Positions 2,182 to 41,904 of a stretch of DNA of 64,000 bases are shown in pieces. The notes beneath the pieces were generated by a model. It searched no databases. It was not told the DNA's origin and saw only the letters and a list, made by a program, of their open reading frames with translations. This stretch comes from Pyrinomonadaceae bacterium (GTDB lineage: Bacteria > Acidobacteriota > Blastocatellia > Pyrinomonadales > Pyrinomonadaceae). Each line of letters begins with the position of its first letter. The first letter of the stretch is position 1. The translations under genes and the position numbers were made by a program. The DNA lies in contig JACMJZ010000029.1 of NCBI GenBank assembly GCA_014380365.1, forward strand, positions 186,001 to 250,000. The letters are read 5' to 3'.

Positions 2182-4044
2182 TCACGAATAGAGATCTTCG
2201 ATCACACTGCCAAACTTCTGATCTATCACTCGTCTCTTAACCTTGAGTGTTGGGGTGAGTTCACCGTTGTCGATCGTGAATTCATCCGGCAACAACGCAA
2301 TTCGGCGGATCCGCTCGTAGTCTGCAAGTTCCCGTGTGAGTGCTGCCACGTCACTTTGAACCAGCTTGATAGCCGCCGGAAACTTTGCGAGACTTGCCCG
2401 GTCACTTGGAAACTTTTCCCCGGCTTCAGTAAGGGCTTGCCTGACGGCTTCCCACTCGGGAACAACGAGGGCGGCCGGCTGTTTGCGACCAGTACCCACG
2501 ACTACTGTCTGACTGACAAACTCGCTTTGCTTAAGGAGACTTTCGATCTGCTGTGGCGCAATGTATTTACCGTTGGAAAGCTTGAACAGATCTTTCTTTC
2601 GATCGGTGATGTAAAGTCGGCCTTTCTTATCCAGATGGCCGACATCACCGGTGGCGAACCACTCATCTTTCAAAACAGTGGCTGTCTCTTCAGGATGGCC
2701 ATAGTAGCCCCTCATCACGTTGGGTCCGCGTAACATGATTTCACCGTCGTCGGCGATGGCAATTTCGATCCCCTCGAAGGGCGAGCCCACCGAGCCAACC
2801 TGATTATCATCAGGACGATTTGCAGTGACGATACATGTTTCGGTGGCGCCGTAGCCCTGCAGAATTGGGATCCCTGCGGCCATGAAAGCGTAGGAAAGTA
2901 CGGGTGAAAGCGGCGCGCCTCCTGACACGAAATATCGCAAACGCCCTCCAACACCTTCACGCCACTTCGAAAACACCAGCCGGCTCGCTACTTTTTGTTG
3001 CAGCCGAAGCTTCGGCCCGATAAGTTTGCCTTTGTCCTGCAACTCAGCATAGCGCTGGCCGACCTCCAACGATCGCACGAAGACCCGGCGTTTCCAGCCC
3101 TTTTGCGAAAACCCTTTCTTAACGATGCGGTGGTAGACCTTCTCAAATAAACGCGGGACTGCAGTCATCACGGTAGGTCTAACTTCGCGCAGATTTTCAC
3201 CCACCTGATCAAACGACGCTGTGTAGTACACGGAAACGCCGTTGTAGCAGAAGATGTAAAAACCGGTGCGCTCAAAGATGTGTGAAAGAGGCAAAACAGA
3301 AAGAGCAATATCCGTGGGTCCAATAGGCAATCCGGCTGTAATAGCCAGGACATTGGAGACGAAATTCGCATGCGTTAGCATTACGCCTTTCGGTTCACCA
3401 GTCGTTCCCGAGGTATAGATTATGGTTGCGAGATCGGTTTGCCTCACAGCTTTGAGGTAAGCATCAAAAGCCGCCGGATTGTTGCGAGCACGTTCCGCCC
3501 CGCTCCGTTCCAGAGCTGCAAGCGTGGTAGATCGATCCATAGCGTCGCCGGCTTCTTCGTCGAAGAAAATAATCTTCTCAAGAAAATCCAACCCTTCCAA
3601 CGCTTTTCGAGCATGCTTGAAGAGCTTTCTGTTGGAGACAAAAATTGCGCGTGCTCCAGAGTCAGTGAGAATGAAACGGATTTGATCAACTGCCTGCGTC
3701 GTGTAGATGGGAACGTTAATGGCGCCCAGACTAAGGATCGCAAGATCTACAATCGACCACTCAGGTCTGTTTTCCGAGAGCAGCGCCACCCGGTCTCCGG
3801 GTCTAATCCCAACGTCAGCTAAGCCCAACGCCACATTGCGCACACGCTCTACGACTTGAGCTGCCGATATATTGATCCAATCGCTACCAATCTTGTGGTT
3901 GAGGGCGTCGGTCTTCGCATGTTTCAGCGTGGCCGCAAGACAGAGTGCGGGTACCGAAGACGCTGCGGCAGAATCCATCACTTTGTTCACTTTTGTTTGA
4001 GCAGCTGAAGCCAAATCAGTGAGTCTCCTGATCCGAGTATTCAA
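2182..4044 (-). CDS. Long-chain fatty acyl-CoA synthetase (AMP-forming)
   Basis: A 620-aa member of the ANL superfamily, expected to activate long-chain fatty acids to acyl-AMP and then acyl-CoA at the inner membrane. The phosphate-binding loop YTSGTTGEPKG is at 210-220. The adenylate motif GYGATE, the ATP-binding TGDVG and the hinge DRKKDLFKLSNGKYIAP are all present in order, and the length fits FadD/long-chain ACSL proteins. There is no N-terminal signal. The hinge sequence and length are close to those of the second copy at 13683. Family assignment is secure; chain-length preference cannot be read from the sequence. Confidence 0.93.
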   Translation of the reverse strand: MNTRIRRLTDLASAAQTKVNKVMDSAAASSVPALCLAATLKHAKTDALNHKIGSDWINISAAQVVERVRNVALGLADVGIRPGDRVALLSENRPEWSIVDLAILSLGAINVPIYTTQAVDQIRFILTDSGARAIFVSNRKLFKHARKALEGLDFLEKIIFFDEEAGDAMDRSTTLAALERSGAERARNNPAAFDAYLKAVRQTDLATIIYTSGTTGEPKGVMLTHANFVSNVLAITAGLPIGPTDIALSVLPLSHIFERTGFYIFCYNGVSVYYTASFDQVGENLREVRPTVMTAVPRLFEKVYHRIVKKGFSQKGWKRRVFVRSLEVGQRYAELQDKGKLIGPKLRLQQKVASRLVFSKWREGVGGRLRYFVSGGAPLSPVLSYAFMAAGIPILQGYGATETCIVTANRPDDNQVGSVGSPFEGIEIAIADDGEIMLRGPNVMRGYYGHPEETATVLKDEWFATGDVGHLDKKGRLYITDRKKDLFKLSNGKYIAPQQIESLLKQSEFVSQTVVVGTGRKQPAALVVPEWEAVRQALTEAGEKFPSDRASLAKFPAAIKLVQSDVAALTRELADYERIRRIALLPDEFTIDNGELTPTLKVKRRVIDQKFGSVIEDLYS

Positions 4045-13682: not shown

Positions 13683-15698
13683 TCAGTTTTCCGAGTCCGC
13701 GTAGAGCGCGTCGATCACATTGCGATACTTCTCATCAACTACGCGGCGCTTGACCTTCAAAGTTGGAGTCATCTCGCCACCTTCGATAGTTAATTCATTC
13801 TCCAGGAGCGCTACTTTCTTTACTCGCTCATACTGCGCGATATCCGGCATCAGTCCGGCCACTTGTCGCTCAAACAGATCCACGATTCGCGGATGATTGC
13901 AGAGTTCCGCGCGGCTGGAGGCTTTAATTCCTTTCAATTGCGCATACGACTCCACGTGCGCCCAGTCGGGGACAATCAGGGCCGCCGGAAACTTGCGGCC
14001 ATTGCCGATCAAGACCACCTGACTCACAAAACGCGAGCCTTTGATCATCTGCTCGAGCGGTTGGGGCGCGATGTATTTGCCGCCTGAGGTCTTGAAGAGT
14101 TCCTTCTTCCGATCCGTGATGCGAAGAAAACCGTCTTCGTCGATCGTGCCAATGTCGCCGGTCTTAAACCAACCATCGTCTGTAAACACGGCGCGGGTTT
14201 CCTGCTGTTTGTTGTAGTAACCCTGCATGATGTTTGGACCGCGGGCTTCTATCTCCCCGTCGGCTGCAATGCGGACTTCGACGTTATTGATGGGCTTGCC
14301 TACAGTCCCGACGCGATTCTGTTCCACTATTCCCGCGGTGATCACCGGCGACGTTTCCGTCAACCCGTAACCCTGAACGATAGGAATTCCGGCGCCAATG
14401 TAGATAAGCGCGAGTTCCTCAGGCAGGGCCGCGCCGCCGGAGACCAAAAGCCGAATTCGTCCGCCCAGCGCCGCGCGCATTTTGGAAAAGATGAGCTTGT
14501 CCGCGATCTTGTGCTTCAAGCCTAGCAGGGCCGGAATCTTCTGATGACGGATGGCCAGCTTCGCGTATTCCTTGCCGACGTCCACCGCCCAATTGAGAAT
14601 GCTGACGTTGAGCCGACCCTTCTCAGCAGTCTTTTCTTTTACCCGCGCGAAAATTTTCTCAAAAATGCGGGGAACACCAACGAAGATTGAAGGTCTCACC
14701 TCGCGCAGGTTGATGCCAATAGCTTCGAGAGACTCGCCGAAGTAGATTGCCATCCCGTGATAGAGGTACATGTACATCGCCATGCGCTCCAGCACATGCG
14801 AGAGAGGCAACACCGAGAGCGCGCTGTCCTCCTTGCTGAACAGGAGATGGCCCGACGAGTCGACCAGATTTGAAACCAGGTTGGCGTGCGTGAGCATCAC
14901 GCCTTTCGGTTCGCCGGTTGTGCCCGAGGTGTAGATGATTGTGGCCAGGTCATCTGGTTTGATCTCATGCGCTATGTTGGTGATGAGGTCAGGCTGTTGT
15001 GCTTCTAATTCGCGGCCGCGTTGTTCGAGGTCAGCCAGGGAAATGCTGGGGGTGCCGTCGCTAGTCGCTTTTTCGAAGAACACCAGTTGCTCTACCGCCG
15101 GGCACTCCGAGAGTATCTCGCGCAGCTGAAGGAACTTATCTTCGTTCGCCAACACCAGAACTCGGGCGCCGGAGTCTTTCAAAATATAACGGACCTGCTG
15201 GGGCGTCAGCGTGGGATAAATCGGGACGTCGATTGCGGCTGCAAACATGCAACCCGCATCCGTCAGAGTCCATTCAGGTCTGCTCTCGGAGAGGATAGCC
15301 ACGCGGTCCCCCCGACGAACGCCAAGAGAATAGAAACCATTTGCGATATGCCGAGCCCGACTGAGCGTTTCATCTGATGAGATGGGTACCCAGCGCTCAT
15401 CGCGTTTGTAGTTGATCGTGTCGGGACGCCGGTGGACGCGCGCTACATACTCAAACACCTCAACCAGGGTGGTGGGCTCGTCCGCGCTCAATGGCATTCG
15501 TTTCGGAGCGTCCGATGCTGGGAGCGCAGGCATCCTGCCTGCATCTTCCTCTTCAGCCGGGAGCGCAGGCATCCTGCCTGCATCTTCCTCTTCAGCCGGG
15601 AGCGCAGGCATCCTGCCTGCATCTTCGTCCCCTGGAAGCGCAGACTTCCTATCTGCATCTTCCGCTTCGACGAAGTCAGTTGGGGGGGTCACATTCAC
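13683..15698 (-). CDS. Long-chain acyl-CoA synthetase with repeat-derived N-terminus
   Basis: 671 aa from the GTG at 15698. Catalytic motifs are complete: YTSGTTGEPKGVMLTH, GYGLTETSP, TGDIG and DRKKELFKTSGGKYIAP. The GTG overlaps the TGA of the TetR gene (GTGA, 15695-15698), so translation is probably coupled. An upstream ATG at 15782 would overlap TetR by 88 bp and is less likely. Residues about 18-66 are an added tail with three tandem copies of AGRMPALPAEEED, encoded by a 39-bp repeat identical in core to intergenic palindromes elsewhere in the window. The core enzyme begins near TLVEVFEYVARVHRRP. Confidence 0.92.
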   Translation of the reverse strand: MNVTPPTDFVEAEDADRKSALPGDEDAGRMPALPAEEEDAGRMPALPAEEEDAGRMPALPASDAPKRMPLSADEPTTLVEVFEYVARVHRRPDTINYKRDERWVPISSDETLSRARHIANGFYSLGVRRGDRVAILSESRPEWTLTDAGCMFAAAIDVPIYPTLTPQQVRYILKDSGARVLVLANEDKFLQLREILSECPAVEQLVFFEKATSDGTPSISLADLEQRGRELEAQQPDLITNIAHEIKPDDLATIIYTSGTTGEPKGVMLTHANLVSNLVDSSGHLLFSKEDSALSVLPLSHVLERMAMYMYLYHGMAIYFGESLEAIGINLREVRPSIFVGVPRIFEKIFARVKEKTAEKGRLNVSILNWAVDVGKEYAKLAIRHQKIPALLGLKHKIADKLIFSKMRAALGGRIRLLVSGGAALPEELALIYIGAGIPIVQGYGLTETSPVITAGIVEQNRVGTVGKPINNVEVRIAADGEIEARGPNIMQGYYNKQQETRAVFTDDGWFKTGDIGTIDEDGFLRITDRKKELFKTSGGKYIAPQPLEQMIKGSRFVSQVVLIGNGRKFPAALIVPDWAHVESYAQLKGIKASSRAELCNHPRIVDLFERQVAGLMPDIAQYERVKKVALLENELTIEGGEMTPTLKVKRRVVDEKYRNVIDALYADSEN
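15520..15670. repeat. 39-bp tandem repeat inside acyl-CoA synthetase gene
   Basis: Units begin at 15520, 15559 and 15598 (period 39 bp), with a decayed fourth at 15634. Each opens with GGGAGCGCAGGCATCCTGCC, the same core as the ends of the intergenic elements at 40021 and 41648. The unit length is a multiple of three, so the frame stays open. It is not a CRISPR array: there are no spacers. Confidence 0.95.
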
Positions 15699-16309
15699 TT
15701 CGCCGTCACTCCGTTCAAGAAAATGTCGAGCACTTGATCGGCCATTGGGGCCAACTTGTAGCGACGTTTGGAGAGTATCCAATTCGTAGCCATTTCGTCC
15801 AAAGCGCCAAAAAGTATTTTCGCAACTACCTTAGCATTGAGTTCAGCCCGGAACACCCCCGCGCTTTGGCCGTCTTCAAAAGTGGACCGAATTAGCTTGA
15901 GATACTCTGCAAAGCCAGCGGCTGAAAATTCCTCCATGAACTTCGTAGAACCGCGCAGCTCCACCTGAAACACAACCGCCAGATCGCGATTCGCCCCGAG
16001 CCGGTCGAGGTGCATGTGGGCAATGGTCCGCAAACGCTCGCGGGGGTCACTAATCTTCTCCATCCGTTGGCGTCCGTCGGCAATCGCTTCTTCCATGCTG
16101 CGATCGAAGATGGAATGAAGGATCTCTTCTTTACTCTTGAAGTAAAGATAGACCGTGCCATCCGCGACTCCGGCTTCGCGCGCAATGTCGGCCACCTTCG
16201 AACTGAAATAACCATTGTGAGCAAAGATGCGAATTGCCGCCCGCAGAATTGCTTGGCGTTTGTCGGCCACGATTGGCCGATCGGGACTCAATGAACGAGC
16301 GGAACGCAT
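15695..16309 (-). CDS. TetR/AcrR family transcriptional regulator, likely of fatty acid metabolism
   Basis: 204 aa. The N-terminal HTH is typical: ILRAAIRIFAHNGYFSSKVADIAREAGVADGTVYLYFKSKEEIL. The ligand-binding C-terminal domain resembles FadR-type TetR proteins of Bacillus and Thermus (inference). The ATG at 16309 is chosen because the longer frame to 16435 adds residues with no family match. It is coupled by a GTGA overlap to the acyl-CoA synthetase, its likely target, and acyl-CoA is the likely ligand. Confidence 0.87.
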   Translation of the reverse strand: MRSARSLSPDRPIVADKRQAILRAAIRIFAHNGYFSSKVADIAREAGVADGTVYLYFKSKEEILHSIFDRSMEEAIADGRQRMEKISDPRERLRTIAHMHLDRLGANRDLAVVFQVELRGSTKFMEEFSAAGFAEYLKLIRSTFEDGQSAGVFRAELNAKVVAKILFGALDEMATNWILSKRRYKLAPMADQVLDIFLNGVTAK

Positions 16310-16481
16310 TTTCGAAATGGCCTTGGTGACAACCGTGCTAATTAACTGTTTGTGTTTGCTGTTTGCCGGACACTGAATGAACAGCCACTCAGTTCCGCAC
16401 CGCGTTAGCCTACCGTTTGTTTCAAGGTTCTGCAATCAACGCTGGAAAGTGTATCCGGTAAAGCACCGGCTGAAATCGACC

Positions 16482-17749: not shown

Positions 17750-17782
17750 GCTCTCAAGAGGCTCTCAAGAGGCTCTCAACAG
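17750..17782. repeat. Three 11-bp tandem repeats at the end of the nucleotidyltransferase gene
   Basis: GCTCTCAAGAG occurs twice in a row and a third time as GCTCTCAACAG. The array spans the gene's stop codon, so its copy number could alter the last residues. Confidence 0.8.
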
Positions 17783-18820
17783 GTGTCTTAAGAAAACACC
17801 CGAGCGATGCAGGGAGTTGCCGATCTGAAACGGGAGGCGGGGAAAATTGTTGAAGGGACCGCGCATCGTCGTGGTCGCCTCGATCGGATTAGGCCAACGA
17901 TGCCCGAGACCATTCAGCACCTCACGCCTGAGCCGCAGGTGCGACAACATCGGCACTGCTTGTCTGCTTGGCATTGAAGGCTTGGGTGATCCCCACTCTT
18001 TAAGAACCGTAGGAACCAGCCATCGTGGAGTCTCGAGGAACCGATGCTTTTCGGGCATGGCGTCGATTTTCGCTCCCAGCAGAATGTGGGCCAGGTTAAT
18101 TGCGTTGACCACGGGCCGGGCTTGTTGTTTTTCACCGAAACAATAGTCCCAGTCGAATTCCGGCACGCGAGCTTCGAGGGCGGCTGCAACGTCCACCAGC
18201 CAGAGGGGCCGCCAGGCGCCTTCCCGCATGAGGTGATAGGAAACCACTCGCAGATGATCCTCCGGACCGAGAATCCGCACATCGGTTTCCCCAAGTCGAA
18301 CCAGCTCTGAGCGGGCGTATAAATCCTCTTCGTGCGTTAACCCAAACTTCGCAAAACCCGAGTGGAGATCAACTTTGAATTTCAACGGATCCAAACTCGC
18401 CAGCGCGCGGCGAGCGGTCTGGGAGTCGTGCTGGCGAACACAAATGTCGATGTCACCGGCAGGCCGGAGGCCAGGTTCGGGGTAATAACGCGCGGCAGCC
18501 CAGCCTTTGACGAGAATTCCCTCCACGCCAAAGGAGCGGAGCAACGCGAATACTTTCTCTACTCGGGAATTGCTGAGACGAGAGTCGAGTCTGTAAAGTC
18601 GATAGGCCTGATGAAACTCGTCCGCAGCTATAGAGCCCCGCAACTCACTCTGGCAAACTCGCCACCACCCAATCGCACCGGCGCCCGTGCGCATCAAGAG
18701 CGGGGCAATCGTTTCAAGTTCGGCTGCTGAGATGTTGGTCGCGGGAGGTTTTGGCCGCCACGCGCCTGCCAGGAACGCGGCGACCAACTTCCCAGTTGCT
18801 TTCGCAGAGGTGGCCTTCAT
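17765..18820 (-). CDS. Nucleotidyltransferase-fold protein (PF14907-like)
   Basis: 351 aa from the ATG at 18820, 37 bp after the PqqD-domain gene; a start at 18916 would overlap that gene. The core GILVKGWAAARYYPEPGLRPAGDIDICV has the G-x(n)-DxD pattern of nucleotidyltransferase-fold proteins of the 'uncharacterised nucleotidyltransferase' family. Members often sit beside PqqD-like and HPr-kinase-like genes in peptide-maturation-like loci (established pattern); no kinase gene is next to it here. Substrate unknown. Confidence 0.78.
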   Translation of the reverse strand: MKATSAKATGKLVAAFLAGAWRPKPPATNISAAELETIAPLLMRTGAGAIGWWRVCQSELRGSIAADEFHQAYRLYRLDSRLSNSRVEKVFALLRSFGVEGILVKGWAAARYYPEPGLRPAGDIDICVRQHDSQTARRALASLDPLKFKVDLHSGFAKFGLTHEEDLYARSELVRLGETDVRILGPEDHLRVVSYHLMREGAWRPLWLVDVAAALEARVPEFDWDYCFGEKQQARPVVNAINLAHILLGAKIDAMPEKHRFLETPRWLVPTVLKEWGSPKPSMPSRQAVPMLSHLRLRREVLNGLGHRWPNPIEATTTMRGPFNNFPRLPFQIGNSLHRSGVFLRHLLRAS

Positions 18821-18857
18821 TGTTGTTAGGTCGAGCGTAACTCTGGTTGCTGTGAAA

Positions 18858-19358
18858 TCACAGCTCGGGTCCACACACTCCCTCGTTGCAGTTTTGCGAG
18901 TCGCACTGGCTGTCAATGTTGCAAGAGCAACCTAGACCCCCGGGATTGGCGATACAAGGGTCGGGGGGGCCGGATCCGGCCTGGGCCGCTGCCGGCGCCG
19001 AGATGGACACGATTAGCGGCAGAGCCAGCGCGGCTGTCAATCCCAGGTTCTGAATTAACCTGCGGCGAGATAGATGTTCCCGTCGTGGCCCGGCAGCGAC
19101 TTCTTTTAGCAATCCAAAGCCGGCCAGCTCTTCTAATCCGAGCGTGACGACCTGGTTGGGTATTGGAGACTTGAGCTCGCGTTGAAGTACCGCGGCGATG
19201 TCGCCCTCAGCTTTTTTGCCATCGCAGTTTTTCCAGATCAGCGCCGCCGTCTTATTGAGACAGTGAGCTTTGTCAGTGTTCAAGTCATAAACCAAAACTT
19301 CGTCCGGTAGTTCTTCCACAATCAGGCCCTCCCGGCGGGCAGTAGGAAACAATGTCAT
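18858..19358 (-). CDS. PqqD-domain protein fused to Tat-like signal and six-cysteine tail
   Basis: 166 aa. Residues 10-88 are a PqqD-like winged-helix domain (VLVYDLNTDKAHCLNKTAALIWKNCDG), the fold that binds precursor peptides in RiPP maturation. Residues 97-127 read as a Tat-type signal: SRRRLIQ, a hydrophobic stretch, then APAAAQA. The last 35 residues carry six cysteines (135, 144, 146, 152, 157, 162), in the last part spaced as CNIDSQCDSQNCNEGVC. AGAGGA precedes the chosen ATG; the frame continues upstream to 19487 without family match. A chaperone-like domain ahead of an exportable, possibly disulfide-rich peptide is unusual. Confidence 0.8.
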   Translation of the reverse strand: MTLFPTARREGLIVEELPDEVLVYDLNTDKAHCLNKTAALIWKNCDGKKAEGDIAAVLQRELKSPIPNQVVTLGLEELAGFGLLKEVAAGPRREHLSRRRLIQNLGLTAALALPLIVSISAPAAAQAGSGPPDPCIANPGGLGCSCNIDSQCDSQNCNEGVCGPEL

Positions 19359-40016: not shown

Positions 40017-40020
40017 TTTG

Positions 40021-40149
40021 CTGGGAGCGCAGGCATCCTGCCTGCAAACGCGAGTACAGCTCGCGAAGATGGTTAGAAAGGCGCGACCTAGGTACAACAG
40101 CCTATTCGCGCTAGCGCGCTCATTGCAGGCAGGATGCCTGCGCTCCCAG
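40021..40149. repeat. Palindromic intergenic element, GCAGGCA-TCC-TGCCTGC type
   Basis: Outer arms of 26 bp (40021-40046 and 40124-40149) are perfect inverted copies. Each arm holds the hairpin GCAGGCA-TCC-TGCCTGC next to GGGAGC. This core is the one expanded in the acyl-CoA synthetase gene at 15520. Confidence 0.97.
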
Positions 40150-41559: not shown

Positions 41560-41647
41560 TGGTTAAGAGAATGACAGATTTGCGATCCAAAAACCAAACC
41601 TGCTGTACTTGACGAACGAATCCCGCGGTGCCATGAGGTCGGCAAGG

Positions 41648-41778
41648 CTGGGAGCGCAGGCATCCTGCCTGCAATGAGCGCGCAGCGCGAACCTGGCTCT
41701 ACTAATCGTCAACGTCCATTGCGGAAGCGGTTTCGCGAGCTGTGCTCGCGTTTGCAGGCAGGATGCCTGTGCTCCCAG
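41648..41778. repeat. Palindromic intergenic element, GCAGGCA-TCC-TGCCTGC type
   Basis: Arms CTGGGAGCGCAGGCATCCTG... (from 41648) and the inverted copy ending at 41778 match except at one base. The interior differs from the copy at 40021 except for short shared pieces (GCGAGCTGTGCTCGCG). It occupies a 345-bp gap ahead of the hybrid kinase, whose promoter should lie in 41779-41904. Confidence 0.96.
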
Positions 41779-41904
41779 CCTCACTCGAACGAAGTGTGAA
41801 GTTTGACTTGGAAACCGCGAAAGATTAGTTTGACCGGACTCAACTGTCGCGCTTCGGGATGCTATTCTCGCGGCACTCAGTTTGGCGCATAAGCATGGCA
41901 ACAA

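Follow-up and report, generated by a model that had tools for sequence, protein, structure and literature searches.

An acyl-CoA synthetase gene of a Pyrinomonadaceae bacterium carries in-frame tandem copies of a REPIN arm in its N-terminal tail

The synthetase gene and its repeat array

The DNA analysed here (the window) is a 64,000-nucleotide stretch of contig JACMJZ010000029.1 of a Pyrinomonadaceae bacterium, whose genome, G000, amounts to 4,977,406 bases in 34 contigs. A gene for a long-chain acyl-CoA synthetase (AMP-binding) lies on the minus strand, downstream of a TetR-family regulator gene that forms its coupled partner (Table 1). The regulator gene ends in GCG AAG TGA, and the GTG start of the synthetase overlaps that TGA. 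The protein read from this GTG begins VNVTPPTDFVEAEDADRKSALPGDEDAGRMPALPAEEEDAGRMPALPAEEEDAGRMPALPASDAPKRMPLSADEPTTL.

Tandem Repeats Finder described positions 15520-15668 as a tandem repeat with a period of 39 and 3.9 copies. Each repeat carries a 23-bp arm, GGGAGCGCAGGCATCCTGCCTGC, which was found three times as an exact match within the gene, 39 bp apart and in frame. This agrees with the first-pass annotation of the window, which had reported three 39-bp tandem units in the N-terminal tail. The annotation had also noted a decayed fourth unit. A diverged arm is indeed present at a spacing of 36 bp, but the word decayed is perhaps less apt. This arm differs from the main arm at five positions and from the GAC/GTC subtype, which has nine exact copies among 120 arms of G000, at only three, so it may descend from another arm subtype. 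The lead-in GAAGAT is common to all four arms, the diverged one included. Measured on the minus strand from the GTG, the arms start at offsets of 42, 78, 117 and 156. All of these are divisible by three and lie in one phase, and the spacings of 36, 39 and 39 keep the reading frame. The same 39 bases recur at offsets 78 and 117.

A structure prediction made without an alignment gave a mean pLDDT of 36.0 and a pTM of 0.24, and a tblastn search of plasmids with the tail returned no match. Since the genome is a draft of 34 contigs, the repeat number of the array could be an assembly error.

Table 1. Features of the window discussed in the text
Feature	Coordinates	Strand	Remarks
Paralogous acyl-CoA synthetase gene, no repeat tail	2182..3954	-	upper end approximate
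Long-chain acyl-CoA synthetase gene (AMP-binding)	13683..15698	-	GTG start at 15698; ORF list, PF00501 and PF23562
Predicted tail peptide of the synthetase, example			DAGRMPALPAEEE
Exact 23-bp REP arm	15520..15542	+	minus strand encodes AGRMPALP
16-bp linker	15543..15558	+	minus strand GGCTGAAGAGGAAGAT, encodes AEEED part
Exact 23-bp REP arm, second	15559..15581	+	
16-bp linker, second	15582..15597	+	same sequence as first linker
Exact 23-bp REP arm, third	15598..15620	+	
Diverged fourth arm	15634..15656	+	encodes ADRKSALP
TetR-family regulator gene, upstream coupled partner	15695..16435	-	ORF list, Pfam
Intergenic REPIN	40020..40149		two exact arms, head-outward, 40023-40045 and 40125-40147
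Intergenic REPIN	41647..41779		arms 41650-41672 (exact) and 41754-41776 (one mismatch)

The 23 bp of the unit had been equated with the arms of two intergenic elements in the window, and this holds for both, apart from one mismatch in the second. The interior of the second element starts AATGAGCGCG, resembling the arm that flanks the transposase gene described below. A paralogous synthetase, 47% identical over the aligned part, had been said to lack the tail; no such tail was found there.

The palindrome family and its transposase gene

G000 contains 119 copies of the arm with at most two mismatches, and a reversed-pattern control gave none. The stretches analysed held 107 arms with at most two mismatches, about 12 fewer than the whole genome, and 120 with at most four; these were grouped into 83 clusters: 53 single arms, 25 two-arm clusters and 5 larger ones. 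Every one of the 25 two-arm clusters is arranged head-outward (><) and none in the opposite sense (<>), and 23 compact pairs were left after one overlapping self-match and one pair 345 bp apart had been dropped. Some of the 53 single arms may be pairs with a decayed partner. In the arm, the head GGGAGC is followed by the stem GCAGGCA/TGCCTGC. The extended arm starts GCTGGGAGC; neither the GTAG (GT[AG]G) foot tag nor the CGTC tag is present in it, and it does not fit the description of CGTC-tagged REPs or of RPE-4 and RPE-6. No predicted gene is overlapped by 65 of the 83 clusters, while 18 overlap one and 16 lie inside one. With its constant head, dispersed copies, head-outward pairs and mostly extragenic location, the palindrome is a REP/REPIN.

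On contig C33 of G000, a Y1-transposase ORF lies between two exact arms, inside an inverted repeat at least 30 bp long; both its left and right flanks contain GCTGGGAGCGCAGGCATCCTGCCTGCAATG. The ORF matched PF01797 and scored 88.3 bits against NF047646, the NCBIfam model of the REP-associated tyrosine transposase (cut-off 80). It is a RAYT-family Y1/HuH transposase gene beside REPs. By our reading, GGGA-headed palindromes stand on both sides of the gene at 8 of 15 homologous RAYT loci of relatives, or at 9 of 15 if G027, with one altered head base, is counted too; the stem sequences differ between genomes. The remaining six loci have other repeats, one-sided repeats or none.

A second RAYT-like gene was seen in G000 (L122, C5:503987-504511). 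Its open frame begins DRHSCLS...EDRQECLS, which resembles another palindrome family read through. The RAYT homologues of G049, G053, G038 and G045 lie within stop-free frames of 1252 to 1811 codons, which may reflect fusions or simply open DNA.

The arm and the synthetase locus in other genomes

With at most one mismatch, the arm was found in 26 of the 115 genomes of the relatives set, the source genome included. The copies numbered 93 in G000, 0 to 2 in each of 15 congeners and 36 in G020, a member of another genus. Exact arms occurred in 5 of the 396 genomes of a phylum sample, and in that sample no tandem exact arms were found outside the window's own genome. A tandem pattern search of genome contigs matched two stretches. 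The identical 23 bases also occur in a Chloroflexi genome and in a Candidatus Obscuribacterales genome, with 11 and 12 copies respectively at up to one mismatch. A search for homologues of the C33 RAYT found a match in just one of these two genomes, and a weak one, with 29% identity over part of the query. The Chloroflexi genome (G115, L128) was excluded from the coding counts because several long open frames overlap where its arms sit. The same-direction spacings in one long open frame there are 200 and 55 bp, neither a multiple of three; should this frame be a gene, they would count against the frame-keeping pattern.

A match to the synthetase was found in all 59 genomes searched, the own one included, although some matches were only distant. 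The 28 homologous loci examined in relatives were free of arms even when four mismatches were tolerated; one locus, L061, whose match begins at query residue 184 at a contig edge, was dropped from the homologues. By our count, 24 of the 28 loci have an in-frame start that overlaps the stop of the upstream ORF. The closest homologue, which is 79% identical, has a short plain tail and reads MNVITQPQAQPAVETRKRMPATPDEPTTL, which places the array after the start and before the KRMP...DEPTTL that the two proteins share. Relatives with the same tail and no intergenic repeat would make the match a coincidence; none was seen. The 28 relatives have N-terminal tails of differing lengths and sequences, partly alike in close congeners, and the idea that the tail is a conserved part of the synthetase family was rejected on account of this variation.

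Arms inside other genes

Gene prediction used an in-house codon-usage caller, for which the window served as training sequence, together with Pfam, and the in-gene status of a cluster rests on both. The 16 in-gene clusters were obtained from the 18 overlapping ones by excluding the ORF at C1:215619, which lies between arms, and the partial overlap at C5:40069. The element had been described as one usually kept between genes. This is borne out by the 65 extragenic clusters, but the synthetase event is not exceptional, because 16 of the 83 clusters (one of them doubtful) lie inside predicted genes. The notion that the event is unique in G000 was rejected for this reason.

Pfam-backed hosts include DnaX, a LigB-AMMECR1 protein, a GH94-type protein, a VWA protein, a PKD protein, an Lhr helicase, DAO, an alpha-2-macroglobulin, a histidine kinase, CoaX, an Fe-S protein and MutS2. 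No Pfam family was found for the hosts L107 and L116, and L020 has a weak one below the cut-off. The CoaX case (L112, contig C27) is doubtful because the CoaX domain begins at residue 17 and the called ATG, which is in frame, stands at the edge of the arm. The arm, directly before coaX, may encode a short N-terminal extension or may be untranslated, upstream of the true start.

In the alignments of mutS2 and L020, several congeners either lack residues at the place of the arm peptide or have another sequence there; at the L020 site, G012 and G004 carry a partly similar stretch. The open frame of L020 runs through an entire small REPIN, the two arms as well as the interior. The dnaX gene holds one forward and four reverse arms with spacings of 54, 48, 51 and 54 bp, a second in-gene array with charged linkers. 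Insertion and replacement are indistinguishable in dnaX, where a variable linker of comparable length is present in the congeners. Taken together, the alignments point to in-frame insertion into conserved genes whose frame was kept open, most clearly in mutS2 and L020. Several in-gene copies are single arms with flanks unlike the interior of the element, and other in-gene arms sit mid-protein in the same phase as those of the synthetase.

The Candidatus Obscuribacterales genome (G116) has two long open frames with two phase-0 arms each, 48 and 39 bp apart, which give tandem in-frame GSAGILPAS units. A third tandem pair in G116 (L286), whose phase-0 arms are 42 bp apart in an open frame of 134 codons, did not enter the count. 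All eight same-direction spacings counted inside genes are multiples of three: 36, 39 and 39 in the synthetase, 48, 51 and 54 in dnaX, and 48 and 39 in G116. Those outside predicted genes in G000 are 83, 41, 54 and 147 bp, two of the four being multiples of three.

In the mutS2 loop that reads AGSAGILPA in G000, G012 (L199) and G009 (L203) carry the inserts AQTSVCDSGQTQTQVC and EQTSVCGPHS...ETKVC. These resemble a different palindrome read in frame, and such elements may have landed in this loop repeatedly. A RAYT gene, reduced to a fragment in G006, adjoins an orthologue of L020 at G004:C35, G012:C184 and G006:C253, and L020 itself is the gene that holds an in-frame REPIN in G000.

Reading-frame bias

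Phase 0 was found in 14 of the 16 in-gene clusters of G000. Its peptides are GSAGILPA for forward arms and AGRMPALP or DRMSALP for reverse ones, and it is the only cysteine-free phase of the arm in either orientation. The two exceptions are L107, a 127-residue ORF with no family, and L005 (C2:172566-174047), a good LigB-AMMECR1 gene in which an arm between the two domains is read in another phase as SRQDACAPS. L005 is thus the sole well-supported exception to the frame rule. In-gene clusters are fewer in the stretches from other genomes, 7 of 82, and six of the seven are in phase 0, the exception being a 107-residue ORF. No in-gene cluster was found among the 22 of G020 or the 19 of G055, where six gene-edge overlaps (four and two, respectively) were scored as partial. 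For this count the single loci L135, L142, L151-L154, L157 and L158 were replaced by larger stretches of the same genomes, L155 (G103) and L156 (G061) were left out, and most of the listed places of G061 and G066 lie outside it. In G116, two putative genes have an arm outside phase 0: a 362-codon stop-to-stop open frame, and a 511-codon one that continues through its arm and terminates shortly beyond it.

Against an expectation of one third, the binomial tail was 1.2e-5 for G000 (14 of 16) and 1.6e-7 with the other genomes added (20 of 23). Leaving out CoaX gave 3.1e-5 (13 of 15) and 4.2e-7 (19 of 22). All of these values presuppose that the events were independent and the gene calls correct. 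The bias is present in both orientations. The 23-bp arm is free of stops in all six frames, and the full left arm has a TGA in one of the three forward frames, right after the 23 bp. The likeliest cause of the bias seems to be selection on the peptide. A broader proposal, which we regard as doubtful, is that the palindrome repeatedly supplies a ready-made linker, GSAGILPA or AGRMPALP, to unrelated proteins. The arm sequence would then have to serve two ends at once, recognition of its hairpin by the transposase and a harmless translation product, and in-frame amplification would be a general route to new linkers and tails.

Origin of the synthetase tail

The arm family, the arm-flanked RAYT gene, the repeat-free homologues in relatives, the in-frame copies and the identical inner units were all observed directly. 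They are probably best explained by the entry of a REPIN arm of the RAYT system into the synthetase tail, followed by amplification in frame and toleration of the product. The first-pass annotation had likewise proposed that an intergenic element entered after the coupled start and was amplified in frame, and this appears to be the best reading because the arm flanks a RAYT gene, forms REPINs throughout the genome and is missing from all 28 homologous loci.

The repeat unit of the synthetase carries a single REPIN arm, REPINs being non-autonomous palindromic elements of a RAYT system. The putatively mobile arms would have been copied about the genome, most plausibly by the C33 RAYT that the same arms flank. 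Copies inside genes would persist only where the protein tolerates extra residues, in linkers, loops and ends. They would be kept almost only in the cysteine-free GSAGILPA/AGRMPALP frame, a bias seen in the counts and here attributed to selection. In the synthetase, an arm presumably inserted into the N-terminal tail, which is variable, downstream of the GTG start coupled to TetR. Arm and acidic linker would then have been duplicated in tandem, perhaps via slippage at the hairpin, into the four in-frame copies of the array. The last duplication was probably recent, because two 39-base stretches are identical. The resulting tail is most likely a tolerated, near-neutral appendage.

The array might instead be noncoding, with the synthetase translated from a downstream start, for example the ATG of KRMPLS, and the hairpins acting in the tetR-synthetase mRNA. 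The minus-strand RNA of 15480-15730 folded better than all 200 shuffles (z -3.52), so the region may have a role in the mRNA. The closest relative likewise has Met at KRM, the CoaX case looks like a wrong start call, and the sections of PMC3733652 on intragenic REPs suggest that N-terminal REPs are often perhaps extragenic through such calls. Nevertheless, we consider this alternative improbable: the overlapping coupled start is retained in most relatives, the spacings preserve the frame, and the arms in the middle of other proteins have the same phase, where an alternative start is no help. It is still less probable that the tail was adopted for a function, as a charged, proline-containing linker tuning the localisation, partner binding or stability of the synthetase, with its amplification favoured. 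The recent identical units, the second amplified array in dnaX and the tandem units in the two Candidatus Obscuribacterales frames are consistent with adoption. However, the tail varies among the relatives, and the same peptide recurs in unrelated proteins, which fits tolerance better.

For the family as a whole, the single frame could reflect a preference for certain insertion sites, or stops in the full-length element, rather than selection on the peptide. The TGA of the full left arm points this way, whereas the openness of the 23-bp arm in all frames, the single in-gene arms with unrelated flanks and the bias in both orientations argue against it. This origin of the bias seems somewhat unlikely, and it is compatible with the explanation preferred for the synthetase gene. 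We give practically no credence to a chance match or a plain low-complexity expansion of a native tail. The N-terminal tails of the synthetase family do vary, but the gene holds three exact 23-base matches to a 119-copy family, and the arm had 0 matches in 100 dinucleotide shuffles of the window, which refuted a chance match at the level of sequence.

Relation to known systems

Palindromes inside genes have been described before. The parts of PMC3733652 on intragenic REPs report GTAG- and CGTC-tagged elements, single, paired or grouped, in genes of Opitutus terrae, Thauera, Rickettsia conorii and others. Many of these lie in DNA synthesis and repair genes, and clusters in Thauera and R. conorii code for 43 to 82 residues. 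Like them, the G000 arm is a short palindrome found inside genes; unlike them, it has a GGGAGC head and neither tag. A preferred reading frame is not described in the main-text parts of that paper on intragenic REPs.

According to passages of PMC2229807, PMC10969869 and PMC3733652, the Rickettsia palindromic elements (RPE), 105-146 or about 150 bp in size, are fused in frame into conserved proteins, and the CGTC type, which includes RPE-4 and RPE-6, is reported without association to transposase genes. The product of gmk with an RPE insert was translated and active, as told in part of PMC2229807. RPEs so described and the G000 arm are both in-frame palindromic elements in conserved proteins, the translation of the G000 copies being predicted, but the arm is 23 bp long and flanks a RAYT gene. 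The REPIN-RAYT systems or REPtrons, as outlined in portions of PMC3116915 and PMC6006769, resemble that of G000 in their inverted REP pairs, REP-flanked Y1 HuH transposase and genome-wide copies. By the same accounts G000 differs in that the head is not GT[AG]G, the class 3 foot CnGA (PMC6006769) was not seen, and about a fifth of the counted clusters lie within predicted genes. The letters of the peptide and the arm gave no relevant match in the literature searched.

In-gene REPs and RPEs are thus already known; the synthetase case is a well-traced addition, and the frame bias is worth following. The case offers a traceable passage of mobile non-coding DNA into protein-coding sequence, in which the intergenic source, the arm-flanked transposase gene, the repeat-free homologues and the amplified in-gene copy are visible together. 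The frame bias makes the survival of selfish palindromes inside genes countable across genomes.

Elsewhere in the window, the ORF at 17765-18916 has at its 3' end a tandem 11-bp repeat, GCTCTCAAGAG, which spans 17750-17783 in 3.1 copies.
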